64,000 nucleotides of DNA, from contig NZ_JARUBP010000001.1 of NCBI RefSeq assembly GCF_029626225.1, positions 496,001-560,000 on the forward strand, written 5' to 3'. The DNA comes from Asanoa sp. WMMD1127 (GTDB taxonomy: Bacteria > Actinomycetota > Actinomycetes > Mycobacteriales > Micromonosporaceae). The notes beneath the pieces are model-generated. The model ran no database searches and was not told the DNA's origin. It worked only from the letters and a program-made list of their open reading frames with translations. Positions within the stretch are counted from its first letter, which is position 1; each line of letters opens with the position of its first letter. Shown one piece after another: positions 20,694 through 37,267 of the stretch. A program made the translations under genes and the position numbers.

Positions 20694-20975
20694 CTAGTCC
20701 GCGCCGCCGTGCACGCGGACCAGGACCAGGTGGTGGGCGAGTTGGCGGACGGTCGGGAAGTCGAACATCAGCACCGGTGGGACGCGCATGCCGAGTCGTT
20801 CCGCGGCCTGCGTCGCCACCGCGATGCCGCCGACCGAGTCGAGGCCCAGGTCGGCGAAGGAGGCGTCGATGTCGACCTCGTCCGGCCCGCGTAATTGCAG
20901 CACACCGGCGATGGCCCGGCTCAGCGTCTCCTGCACCAGCTCCAGGTCCTTGGTGCGGTCGGGGCTCGTCGTCAT
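20694..20975 (-). CDS. Acyl carrier protein (ACP 1, linked to CLF)
   Basis: A 93-residue carrier protein. The phosphopantetheine serine is Ser47 in ADLGLDSVGG, followed by a helix III ending in MFDFPTVRQLAHHL. The N-terminus is longer than in most type II ACPs. It is the last gene of the minus operon and its ATG overlaps the CLF stop (ATGA), giving a CLF-ACP pair. A second ACP sits after KS-alpha, so one may carry chain extension and the other a separate task such as a modified or starter unit; this cannot be decided from sequence. Confidence 0.9.
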   Translation of the reverse strand: MTTSPDRTKDLELVQETLSRAIAGVLQLRGPDEVDIDASFADLGLDSVGGIAVATQAAERLGMRVPPVLMFDFPTVRQLAHHLVLVRVHGGAD

Positions 20976-22192
20976 GCTTCCTCCAGGAAGTCGGGGGCGG
21001 TCAGCACCAGCGCCGAGTTGAAGCCGCCGTAGCCGCGGGCCAGCACCAGCACCGCCCGCAAGGGAAGGGGTCGCGCCGCGCCCGTCACGAGATCCAGCTG
21101 GTACGCCACGTCCCGGACTCCGACGGTCGGCGGCAGCACCTGGTCGCGCAGGGCGAACAGGGCGGCCGCGACGTCGATGGCCGCACCGGCGTACGCCCGG
21201 CCGGTCATCGTCTTCGGCGCGGTGACCGGGACACCGTGCGGCCCGAACACCTCGACGAGGGCCGCGGCCTCGGCGGCGTCCAGGTCCGGCACGCCCGCCG
21301 CGTCGGCGAAGACCGCGTCCACCTGGCCGGGCGTCAACCCGGCCTCCGCGACGGCCCGCCGGATCGCCCGGGCCAGCGTCGGCGGCCGGCCCCGCTCCGG
21401 CGCCGGGTCGAAGGTCGCCGCGTGGCCGGCCAGCACGCCGTAACGGTGCACGCCCCGTGCGCGCGCCGCGGCGTCGTCCTCGACCACGAACATCGCCCCG
21501 CCCTCGCCGGGCACGTAGCCGGCCGCCGCCGCGTCGAACGGCAGGTAGGCCCGCGACGGCTCGGTGACGCGGCTGAGCCGGTCCGTCGACAGCTGCGCGG
21601 TCAGGCCGTAGGGGCACAGCGACGCGTCCGCACCACCGCTGACCACGATCCGCGAGCCGCGTTCGACGAGGCGGCGGGCCTGGGCCAGCGCGTCCAGCGA
21701 GCCGGCCTGCTCCGCGGCGATCACCCCGCAGGGCCCACGCATGCCGTGCCGGATCGAGATCTGCCCGGTGGTCGCGGCATAGAACCAGGCGATCGACTGG
21801 TACGCGCCGACCCAGCCCGGTCCCTTGCTCCACAACCGTTCGATCTCCCGCTGGCCGAACTCGGTGCCGCCGGACGAGCTGGCCGTGACCACCGCCATCT
21901 CGTACTCGGGCAGTTCCGCGGGCGAAACGCCGCCGTCGTCGAGCGCCATCGCTGCGGCGGTCAGGCCCATGTGCGTCCAGTGGTCGGTCTGCGGGATGAG
22001 CCGGCTCGGCACATGCTCCCCGGCCACGAAGTCGCGCACCTCGGCGGCGAGCCGCACCGGATAGTCGCTGGCGTCGAACCGGCTGATCGGGCCGATCGCG
22101 CTCTGCCCGGCCAGGGTCGCGGACCAGAAAGCCGATGCGCCCAGTCCGTTGGGGGCGACGACGCCGATGCCGGTGACGGCCACGCCGCTCAC
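20972..22192 (-). CDS. Type II PKS chain length factor (KS-beta)
   Basis: 406 residues with the ketosynthase fold, but the active-site cysteine is replaced by glutamine (Gln162 in IAAEQAGSLDA), the hallmark of chain length factors. QISIRHGMRGP, AYLPFDAAAAGYVPGEGG and PVTAPKTMTGR follow the actinorhodin CLF closely. With KS-alpha it forms the heterodimer that sets polyketide length. It does not lie next to KS-alpha, as it does in nearly all type II clusters, but 14 kb away in another operon, coupled to ACP 1 and a SnoaL-like gene (ATGA overlaps on both sides). Confidence 0.95.
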   Translation of the reverse strand: MSGVAVTGIGVVAPNGLGASAFWSATLAGQSAIGPISRFDASDYPVRLAAEVRDFVAGEHVPSRLIPQTDHWTHMGLTAAAMALDDGGVSPAELPEYEMAVVTASSSGGTEFGQREIERLWSKGPGWVGAYQSIAWFYAATTGQISIRHGMRGPCGVIAAEQAGSLDALAQARRLVERGSRIVVSGGADASLCPYGLTAQLSTDRLSRVTEPSRAYLPFDAAAAGYVPGEGGAMFVVEDDAAARARGVHRYGVLAGHAATFDPAPERGRPPTLARAIRRAVAEAGLTPGQVDAVFADAAGVPDLDAAEAAALVEVFGPHGVPVTAPKTMTGRAYAGAAIDVAAALFALRDQVLPPTVGVRDVAYQLDLVTGAARPLPLRAVLVLARGYGGFNSALVLTAPDFLEEA

Positions 22193-22611
22193 TGGACCGA
22201 CCCCGAGGTCGCGATCATCTGAGCGCCGACCGCGTCGGCGATGGCGAGGAGGCCGGCCAGCGGGCGCATCATCACCACGAAGTTGGTCACCTGCCCGGTG
22301 TCGTCGAACGTCAGCAGGTCGATGCCCTCCACCGGCTCGCCGCTCACCGTGGCGCGGAAGACCAGGCCGTGCAGGGGCCCGCTGACCGGCGCCAGCGACT
22401 CGGGGGCGTCGTCCACGCCGCCGAGGACGGCCACGTAACGGAAGTCCTCGAACACCACCATCAGCGCCGCCAGCAGCTCGGCGACCGCTTCGCGGCCCAC
22501 CACCGGGCGCATCGTGGCCGGGCGGTGGAACACCACGTCGGGCGCCATCGCCTCGACCAGCGCCGCCAGGTCGCGGCGCTCCACCGCCGACCGGACCCGT
22601 TCCACACTCAT
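22189..22611 (-). CDS. SnoaL-like / NTF2-fold protein
   Basis: 140 residues with a nuclear transport factor 2-like pattern: an N-terminal helix VERVRSAVERRDLAALVEAM, then APDVVFHRPATMRPVVGREAV and a beta sheet ending FDDTGQVTNFVVMMRPL. SnoaL-family members include polyketide cyclases (fourth-ring aldol closure) and hydroxylases. It is coupled by ATGA to both the CLF and the SDR. A ring-closure or isomerisation role is likely; the exact step is inference. Confidence 0.7.
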   Translation of the reverse strand: MSVERVRSAVERRDLAALVEAMAPDVVFHRPATMRPVVGREAVAELLAALMVVFEDFRYVAVLGGVDDAPESLAPVSGPLHGLVFRATVSGEPVEGIDLLTFDDTGQVTNFVVMMRPLAGLLAIADAVGAQMIATSGSVQ

Positions 22612-35718: not shown

Positions 35719-35975
35719 CACTCCACCCCTCGCAGCGCCGCGCGGTCGTTGACGTAGGTCACCGTCTCCGCCGGGGTCTGCATGTGCTCCAGGGCCTCGT
35801 CGGGCATCGGCACGCCGTACTCCTGCTGCACCCGGGCGGCGAGCTCGAGCAGCGCCAGCGAGTCGTAGCCCAGGTCCGTGAACGTGACGTCGCCGATGTC
35901 GCCGTCCAGCGAGGACGACTCGGCCTCGCCGGCCGCCTCGCGCATGATCCGGCGTACGTCGTCGATGGTGAACAT
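35718..35975 (-). CDS. Acyl carrier protein (ACP 2, linked to KS-alpha)
   Basis: 85 residues, normal type II length. The phosphopantetheine site is Ser39 in [13 protein letters not shown]. It starts at ATG 35975, 29 bp after KS-alpha, at the position where a CLF would normally intervene. It is coupled to the aromatase/cyclase. It is the likely main carrier for chain extension, since it follows the whiE gene order once the CLF is removed. Confidence 0.94.
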
Positions 35976-36004
35976 GTGATCTTCCCTCCTGGCTGGCGGC
36001 GGCG

Positions 36005-37267
36005 TCAGTCGCCGTCGCGGGTGAGGACCATGGCCGACTGGAACCCGCCGAATCCGCTGCCGACGCTCAGCACCCCGCGCAGGGCTTGCTCGCGCGCGGT
36101 CAGCGGCACGTAGTCGAGGTCGCATTCGGGGTCGGGGGTGCGCAGGTTGGCCGTCGGCGGCACGACCTGGTGTTCGAGCGCCAGCGCGCAGGCCGCCACC
36201 TCGATCGACCCGATCGCGCCGAGCGAGTGGCCGATCATCGACTTGATGGAGCTCACCGGGACCTCGTAGGCCCGCCGGCCGAGGCTGCGCTTGAAGGCCG
36301 CCGTCTCGTGCCGGTCGTTCTGGCGGGTGCCGGAGCCGTGCGCGTTGATGTAGTCGACCGCGCTCGGATCCAGCCGGGCCTGGGCCAGCGCCACCCGGAT
36401 GGCCTCGGCCATCTCCCGCCCGTCGGGCTTGAGCCCGGTCATGTGGAACGCGTTGCTGCGGCTGCCGAACCCGGCGATCTCCGCGTAGACGTGCGCGCCG
36501 CGCCGGCGGGCGGCCTCCCGCTCCTCCAGCACCAGCACCGCCGCGCCCTCGCCGAGCACGAAACCGTCGCGGTCGCGGTCGAACGGGCGGGACGCGCCGG
36601 CCGGGTCCTCGTTGTTGGGCGTGGTGGCCTTGATCGCGTCGAAGCAGGCGGCCGTGATCGGCGAGATGGGCGCGTCGGTCGCGCCGGCGATCACCACCTC
36701 GGCGGTGCCCTCGCGGAGCAGCTGGACGCCGTGGCCGATCGCGTCGAGCCCGGCGGTGCAGCCGGTGGAGATCAGCGACACCTGCCCCTCGGCGCCGGCG
36801 TCGCGGGCCACCTCGACCGCCATCGTGGTCGGCACCATGTAGCCGTAGAGCTGTGGCACGCCGTAGCGCCAGTCGACGTTCCACTGGCGGCCGCCGTCGC
36901 TGAGCACGACGTACTCCTGCTCCAGGCCCATCGTGCAGCCGACCGCGTTGCCGATGCTGACCGACACCTGCTCGGGACCCACCTCGTCGAGGTCGAGCCC
37001 GCTGTCGGCGACCGCCTCGCGCGCCGCCACCACGGCGAACTGCGCCGCGCGGTCCATCCGGCGCACCTCCTGCGGCGAGAGGCCCTCGCGGGCCGGATCG
37101 AAGTCGACCTCGGCGCCGACCCGGGAGCGGAAGCCGCTCGGGTCGAACAGGGTGATCTGCCGGGTGGCGGTGCGGCCGGCGGTGAGCAGCTCCCAGAACG
37201 CCTTCGTCCCGATGCCGCCCGGCGCGACCACACCCAACCCGGTGACCACCACCCGCCGATCCGTCAC
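36005..37267 (-). CDS. Type II PKS ketosynthase alpha
   Basis: 420 residues with every catalytic residue: Cys170 in [13 protein letters not shown], His in [17 protein letters not shown] and [26 protein letters not shown] and [15 protein letters not shown] frame the protein. Start GTG 37267 overlaps the cupin stop (GTGA). It condenses malonyl-ACP units together with the CLF. The following gene is an ACP, not the CLF, which lies 14 kb away. No starter KAS III or acyltransferase gene is present, so an acetate starter is the simplest reading. Confidence 0.97.

Follow-up and report, generated by a model that had tools for sequence, protein, structure and literature searches.

Can the two halves of a type II polyketide synthase (PKS) still work together when their genes lie far apart? 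The chain-extending ketosynthase (KS-alpha) and the chain length factor (CLF, or KS-beta) are usually treated as an inseparable pair, and the available part of PMC12664062 terms them an obligate heterodimer. Clusters in which the two genes are split break the usual adjacency, and one lies in the stretch analyzed here, a window of 64,000 nucleotides (nt) from Asanoa sp. WMMD1127 (C1:496001-560000 of a ~8-Mb genome, on a contig of 7.96 Mb). A sequence-only reading of this window had placed KS-alpha and CLF in different operons, and both genes prove to be complete, to share the minus strand, and to lie 13,812 nt apart (Table 1). The split is confirmed as real and recurrent, not unique to the window, and its KS-alpha and CLF very likely form the usual heterodimer. 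Taken as a whole, the cluster looks like a pentangular type II PKS, and we consider it probable that a normal KS-CLF heterodimer is made from two gene blocks, with one acyl carrier protein (ACP2) building the chain and another (ACP1) doing some other job. The enzyme is probably ordinary, and what sets the cluster apart is its gene layout together with ACP1.

The KS-alpha (420 codons) has an intact catalytic Cys-His-His set, identical across all 81 aligned KS rows, and the CLF (406 codons) has Gln where the KS has Cys. Their top matches among solved structures are the actinorhodin KS (1tqy_A, 604 bits) and the actinorhodin CLF (1tqy_B, 465 bits), respectively. At the CLF active-site position, 80 of 82 aligned rows have Gln, the whiE-type CLF of the same genome has Gly, and the CLF of Actinomadura rupiterrae (L022) has the only Glu. 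Together with ACP2, a discrete carrier with the DS serine, the window holds every component of a type II minimal PKS. What it exceeds is the 2-kb KS-CLF distance limit of PMC10132072, which, from the part of that paper available, is a search criterion and no part of the enzyme definition.

Searching the strain's own genome gave nine places for the KS query and seven for the CLF query. The sole other CLF-grade match (53% identical) belongs to a whiE-like gene set at C1:5604-5610 kb, where it directly adjoins the nearest paralog of the window KS (68% identical); the remaining CLF-query matches are ketosynthases, 27%–34% identical. The window CLF is indeed the only one of its cluster, as had been claimed, since the other sits in that separate locus. 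The window is not flanked by another CLF or type II KS either: the nearby KS at C1:565192, some 5 kb to the right of the window, belongs to type I and is preceded by an AMP-ligase and an ACP. An assembly artefact is unlikely, given that the same arrangement recurs in four further assemblies and that the window contig is 7.96 Mb long.

To place the split among its relatives, we used a pattern-based scan of genome contigs and kept the best 80 of 259 CLF relatives, 61%–73% identical to the window CLF. KS directly precedes CLF in 65 of these 80 loci; the KS stop overlaps the CLF start by 1–11 nt in 53 of the 65, and the other 12 have a gap of 2–104 nt (the CLF start was taken as the in-frame ATG or GTG nearest the KS stop, a choice that favours overlap). 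Adjacency is thus the rule, as the sequence-only reading had said, and its view that the CLF is missing from a whiE-like order is borne out by the adjacent relatives, among which the order polyketide cyclase (CYC)-cupin-KS-CLF-ACP-aromatase/cyclase (ARO) is common. The other 15 loci are split, with the KS 7.5–36.5 kb away on the same contig in 14 and on another contig in one. The window's family in the genome set is probably that of Micromonospora, as two of its CLF places share their coordinates with the M. sicca and M. veneta matches. Among 354 genomes of this family, 105 carry 112 CLF places (E ≤1e-130), 107 of them adjacent and five split, including the window; this count was read by eye, and four places without a listed KS were settled separately as adjacent. 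In the family of A. rupiterrae and Rhizohabitans (341 genomes), 42 carry 45 CLF places (1e-165 or better), and of the 30 places with a locus 24 are adjacent and six split. With the clusters of G208, G073, G411, and G684 added, the distinct split clusters number 20 including the window. Hence the earlier suggestion that the arrangement is exceptional stands in part: it is not unique, but it is uncommon (5/112 in the family). A CLF search of plasmids (97 records), which left KS distance aside, gave a best identity of 63.5% among the matches listed. As a separate observation, a locus of Micromonospora thermarum (L035, 5451-11173) has, on the opposite strand and adjoining its pentangular pair, another KS/CLF-like pair that is more distant (37% and 27%).

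The split takes two forms that mirror each other. In form A the KS keeps the old operon and the CLF sits in a sugar-type block; five clusters belong here, spread over two families in the genome set, namely those of the window, A. rupiterrae (G001), Rhizohabitans (G002), G411, and G684. All five have the block GlmU-like acetyltransferase, PIG-L deacetylase (PIGL), a conserved 314-residue protein (sec314), glycosyltransferase (GT1), short-chain dehydrogenase/reductase (SDR), CLF, and ACP1. The run KS-ACP2-ARO-DUF1772 is unbroken in four of the five, the exception being G684, in which a methyltransferase-like gene (25% identity) lies on the other strand between KS and ACP2; a ketoreductase (KR) and two antibiotic biosynthesis monooxygenases (ABM2 and ABM1) are retained with the KS in the four clusters where the fetched DNA reaches. 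In each of the window's four relatives, the SDR and CLF genes as we called them share 4 nt. KS and CLF lie on opposite strands in A. rupiterrae and G684, on different contigs in G411, and both on the minus strand in Rhizohabitans, 29 kb apart with plus-strand genes between. A search of 65 Actinomadura genomes with the GlmU-like protein, which mostly returned apparent housekeeping GlmU, led to G411.

Form B (15 clusters, in Nonomuraea, Amycolatopsis, Kibdelosporangium, Gandjariella, Microtetraspora, and Micromonospora) has the CLF keeping the tailoring genes, with an ABM gene after it in 15 of 15 and a KR in 14 of 15; an ACP2-like gene is beside it in nine of 15. Unlike the window, the KS of form B is the one that goes with CYC and cupin away from the old tailoring genes (CYC-cupin-KS in nine of the ten clusters examined, the exception being A. 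rubida, G014), and no ACP1 match was found beside the CLF in form B clusters. In the 14 with both genes on one contig, the distance is 6.8–36.5 kb, and ten of these have them on opposite strands.

The trees point to more than one event. All KS and CLF trees omitted L024, whose KS is in two frames, and the careful trees used 44 adjacent rows that we chose from 66. In quick trees of 81 rows, the split rows cluster beyond shuffled labels (6 and 5 changes versus 14.0). One origin for all splits is rejected on the CLF data (approximately unbiased test, p-AU 0.00014 for a single clade of all split rows), though not on the KS data (p-AU 0.175). The careful KS tree unites the five form A rows in one clade, supported at 99/84 and present in 98% of 200 bootstrap trees. 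For G411 the CLF is represented by a 329-aa frame only, and it was omitted from the four-row form A CLF constraint test; a clade of those four rows is not rejected (p-AU 0.57), and in the CLF tree without G411, form B and 17 adjacent rows fall behind a 99/93 branch to which no form A row belongs. We favour two origins as the best reading, and further ones may be hidden within form B.

Over 66 adjacent rows (65 related loci plus the strain's own whiE-type locus; 2,145 pairs), KS and CLF distances correlate with r 0.81, and the window pair falls on the adjacent-row line with a mean residual of 0.06 standard deviations. Ranked by match to the window CLF among 81 KS rows, its own KS comes third and the whiE-type KS 27th. 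This distance-profile match gives mild support to the window pair. Stronger support comes from A. rupiterrae, Rhizohabitans, and G684: no second KS-alpha above 42% identity is among the matches listed for them, so the split pair would be without an alternative partner there; G411 does carry a second KS-alpha pair. These data bear directly on the notion that the window KS-alpha pairs with the whiE-locus CLF, which would make the window CLF a relic or give it another purpose. That locus does hold a CLF, next to the nearest paralog of the window KS, but the window CLF is full length with its Gln in place, the best 80 of 259 relatives are closer to it (61%–73% identical) than is the whiE-type CLF (53%), and the three genomes just named have no second KS-alpha/CLF pair among the matches listed; we regard such a cross-pairing as highly improbable.

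The sequence-only reading had each subunit coupled to an ACP of its own. This holds for the CLF, which overlaps both ACP1 and the SnoaL-like gene by 4 nt; on the other side the KS is separated from ACP2 by a 29-nt gap, and the gene overlapping it (4 nt) is the cupin. The further suggestion that the two carriers may be specialised gains some ground, as they are of different kinds. The best solved relative of ACP2 is the actinorhodin ACP (71 bits), whereas that of ACP1 is a type I EryA chain (37 bits), along with other type I ACPs among its best matches. The phylogeny of the two that had been proposed was made with 64 ACPs: four ACP1 rows separate from 60 type II rows at support 99, on few alignment columns. 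An origin of ACP1 as a duplicate of ACP2 is ruled out by this tree, and ACP1 is, by its sequence relationships, a type-I-like carrier protein and no copy of ACP2. All five form A clusters keep its DS serine. Could ACP1, coupled as it is to the CLF, nevertheless build the chain and leave ACP2 a side task? The 4-nt overlap with the CLF recurs in A. rupiterrae and G684, and the invariant serine would suit such a role; ACP1, however, resembles modular type I carriers, while ACP2 stands in the KS block of all five form A clusters and ACP2-like genes are found in many adjacent relatives. Two irregularities of ACP1 in the relatives, given below, also count against this proposal, and we hold it to be quite unlikely.

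We picture the cluster as follows. The CLF would have left an ancestral order CYC-cupin-KS-CLF-ACP-ARO-DUF1772-KR-ABM-ABM and moved into a second block, which probably adds a sugar to the product; ACP2, remaining beside the KS, would carry the growing chain, and ACP1 would be a separate carrier with another task. Deacetylated amino sugars are re-acylated in teicoplanin-type pathways, and by that analogy we guess that ACP1 might deliver an acyl group in the sugar block. Several observations weigh against this picture. The KS rows of L059, L041, L022, L047, and L057 also score 0.75–0.77 against the window CLF, like its own KS, and for L056, taken as a form B control, the KS of the same cluster comes no higher than 19th of 81. 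ACP1 is less conserved than ACP2 among the form A relatives (37%–44% versus 63%–68% identity to the window); in G684 its reading frame breaks after the DS serine in the assembly, so that ACP1 may be dispensable there or the sequence wrong, and in Rhizohabitans it follows the CLF after a 20-nt gap with no overlap. The CLF tree alone does not join the form A rows, and with the short G411 frame the starred branches force two changes. Finally, one long minus-strand transcript could serve both blocks in the window: between 42319 and 20694 every predicted gene reads on the minus strand, and intergenic gaps exceed 100 nt only at 33164-33395, 31122-31234, and 28714-28845.

A. rupiterrae and G684 must use two separate transcripts, because KS and CLF lie on opposite strands, and so must Rhizohabitans, because plus-strand genes lie between them; of the 17 other split clusters that carry both genes on one contig, 12 have them on opposite strands. 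The two transcripts proposed in the sequence-only reading may also exist in this strain. Within 20200-38200, zero promoter-like sites were found (0.4 expected) and four terminator-like sites (3.0 expected), both counts being uninformative. Regulators of the SARP (Streptomyces antibiotic regulatory protein) type bind repeats spaced by 11 nt, and 13 upstream regions were scanned for such repeats against 300 shuffles each. In Rhizohabitans they occur upstream of both blocks, each equalled by one of 300 shuffles; in the window no repeat is notable upstream of the CLF block (equalled in 213 of 300 shuffles), the CydA gene (290), or the regulator gene (265), and in three other window regions the repeats are equalled by 17–21 of 300. 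These shuffle counts carry no correction for the 13 regions.

Does the split itself do anything? It may be a functionless, neutral rearrangement, tolerated because the same cluster regulators control both blocks, and to this we would give even chances. The existence of two mirror-image forms with different neighbours suggests that no single new neighbour was required, and the Rhizohabitans repeats before both blocks fit shared control, bearing in mind the number of regions scanned. On the other hand, the seven-gene CLF block of form A is intact in five clusters from two families, where free shuffling would have scattered it, and the window lacks an outstanding repeat at the three sites named above. 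The contrary possibility is a safety interlock: as a KS cannot extend without its CLF, the placement of the CLF would gate chain building, and a CLF behind the sugar-tagging genes would let it start only during self-protection by glycosylation. In all five form A clusters the CLF is second to last, behind the PIG-L deacetylase and GT1. But a start/stop overlap links direct neighbours only, GT1 and SDR do not overlap in A. rupiterrae by our gene calls, and form B does not show the CLF behind sugar genes; we judge the interlock unlikely. Equally doubtful is its fuller version, in which the overlaps tying the CLF to the SDR (or SnoaL-like gene) and to ACP1 would mean that CLF supply licenses chain building only while the sugar block is expressed, with ACP1 handing a second acyl unit to that block.

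Pentangular-polyphenol clusters include those of the pradimicin, lysolipin, xantholipin, albofungin, and frankiamicin kind. Like these, the window has KS-alpha, CLF, ACP, ARO, cyclase, ketoreductase, and an adjacent ABM pair (33396-34048), and, the CLF aside, its gene order is that of many of the 65 adjacent loci; unlike them, it has KS and CLF 13.8 kb apart, a type-I-like ACP beside the CLF, and a GlmU-like/PIG-L block. Two adjacent co-directional ABM monooxygenases mark the pentangular class according to the accessible part of PMC4383371, and the window pair is of this kind. The window also shares homologues of cupin, KS, CLF, ACP, and ARO with the whiE spore-pigment locus, of which the genome has its own copy (L002/L127, so named by gene set and presumably the spore-pigment locus); that copy, unlike the window, keeps KS and CLF adjacent, and the window cluster is accordingly not the genome's spore-pigment locus. 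In the part of PMC10132072 that could be consulted, a catalogue of 6,352 KS/CLF pairs admits only pairs no more than 2 kb apart, a limit for which it cites Hillenmeyer et al.; the AQ-256 cluster had its CLF dropped as there was no KS within 2,000 bp; we liken AQ-256 to the window by that description alone. Split clusters would be left out by such a filter, so pentangular diversity in catalogues may be undercounted. The split is thus a genuine and repeated departure within a well-known system, one that was not found in the literature searched, mostly by titles and abstract openings, with subscription papers and the amexanthomycin cluster figure outside the coverage; nor did these searches find a description of a sugar-modified pentangular product, for which the form A clusters are candidates. 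The two mirror-image splits could serve as a natural experiment on whether the heterodimer needs coupled translation, a question of practical use in enzyme engineering.

Table 1. Genes of the split cluster in the window (positions within the 64,000 nt)
Feature	Position	Strand	Remark
KS-alpha, chain-extending ketosynthase	36005..37267	-	Cys170/His310/His347
CLF (KS-beta)	20972..22192	-	Gln162
ACP2, canonical type II PKS carrier protein	35718..35975	-	best solved relative actinorhodin ACP
ACP1, free-standing type-I-like carrier protein	20694..20975	-	start overlaps CLF stop, 4 nt
Cupin	37264..37713	-	4-nt overlap with KS
Polyketide cyclase CYC, PF04673	37710..38039	-	
Aromatase/cyclase ARO, PF03364	35254..35718	-	
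Anthrone-oxygenase-like, PF08592 (DUF1772)	34799..35257	-	
Ketoreductase-type SDR (KR) of KS block	34048..34779	-	named by sequence and position
ABM2, antibiotic biosynthesis monooxygenase	33722..34048	-	
ABM1, adjacent to ABM2	33396..33725	-	pair is pentangular marker
Large regulator between blocks	31235..33163	-	SARP-type by sequence, without family search
Two cytochrome bd subunit-like genes between blocks	28846-31121	-	named from sequence
GlmU-like acetyltransferase half, first gene of CLF block	27532..28713	-	weak uridylyltransferase-half remnant
PIG-L family de-N-acetylase	26849..27535	-	
sec314, 314-aa protein, signal-like N-terminus	25875..26819	-	no family match; conserved in CLF block
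P450 / P450-derived glycosyltransferase activator-like	24633..25847	-	not found here in other four form A clusters
GT1, activator-dependent family glycosyltransferase	23432..24607	-	
SDR of CLF block	22608..23435	-	homologue overlaps CLF 4 nt in other four form A clusters
SnoaL-like gene, 140 aa, between SDR and CLF	22189..22611	-	among form A clusters, window only

The KS block of the window reads CYC-cupin-KS-ACP2-ARO-DUF1772-KR-ABM2-ABM1, its junctions overlapping by 4 nt or 1 nt except at KS/ACP2 and at DUF1772/KR (a 19-nt gap). Its KR, a candidate for the C-6 type ketoreductase of the pentangular subclass, is 69%–71% identical to the SDR at the corresponding position of the A. rupiterrae, Rhizohabitans, and G684 clusters; across the 80 loci the values are mostly 50%–68%. 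The CLF block reads GlmU-like-PIGL-sec314-P450-GT1-SDR-SnoaL-CLF-ACP1, and all four junctions from GT1 through ACP1 overlap by 4 nt. The GlmU-like protein aligns to solved GlmU from residue 154 onward, that is, over the acetyltransferase half, and its uridylyltransferase half gives a remnant match of 13.7 bits only; the gene content of this block would imply an amino-sugar step. The regulator and the two cytochrome bd-like genes between the blocks share the strand of both blocks and are set off by 232, 113, and 132 nt. A. rupiterrae and G684 also have homologues of the cytochrome bd-like genes (44%–50%) close to their KS block, and these genes perhaps serve self-protection.

Elsewhere in the window, 57570-59129 encodes a PhsA/CueO-like multicopper oxidase with a signal-like start, whose homologues in the fetched form A regions are 59% identical in A. 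rupiterrae and Rhizohabitans and 39%–41% in G684 and G411; it could oxidise or couple a phenolic product. A flavin halogenase-like protein is encoded at 40922-42319 (CmlS model, 274 bits, below its cut-off of 900). Past the window end, C1:563181-574185 (L126) carries genes for an AMP-ligase, an ACP, and a type I ketosynthase along with an FAD monooxygenase, followed by biotin-carboxylase-type genes and an ABC pair. Genes beside the A. rupiterrae KS block match the final four of these at 47%–69% identity, and the cluster therefore probably continues beyond the window end. To the left of the cluster, 4871-12751 holds a sugar-uptake set (glycosidase, transporter, and repressor, named from sequence only) that is probably unrelated to it.

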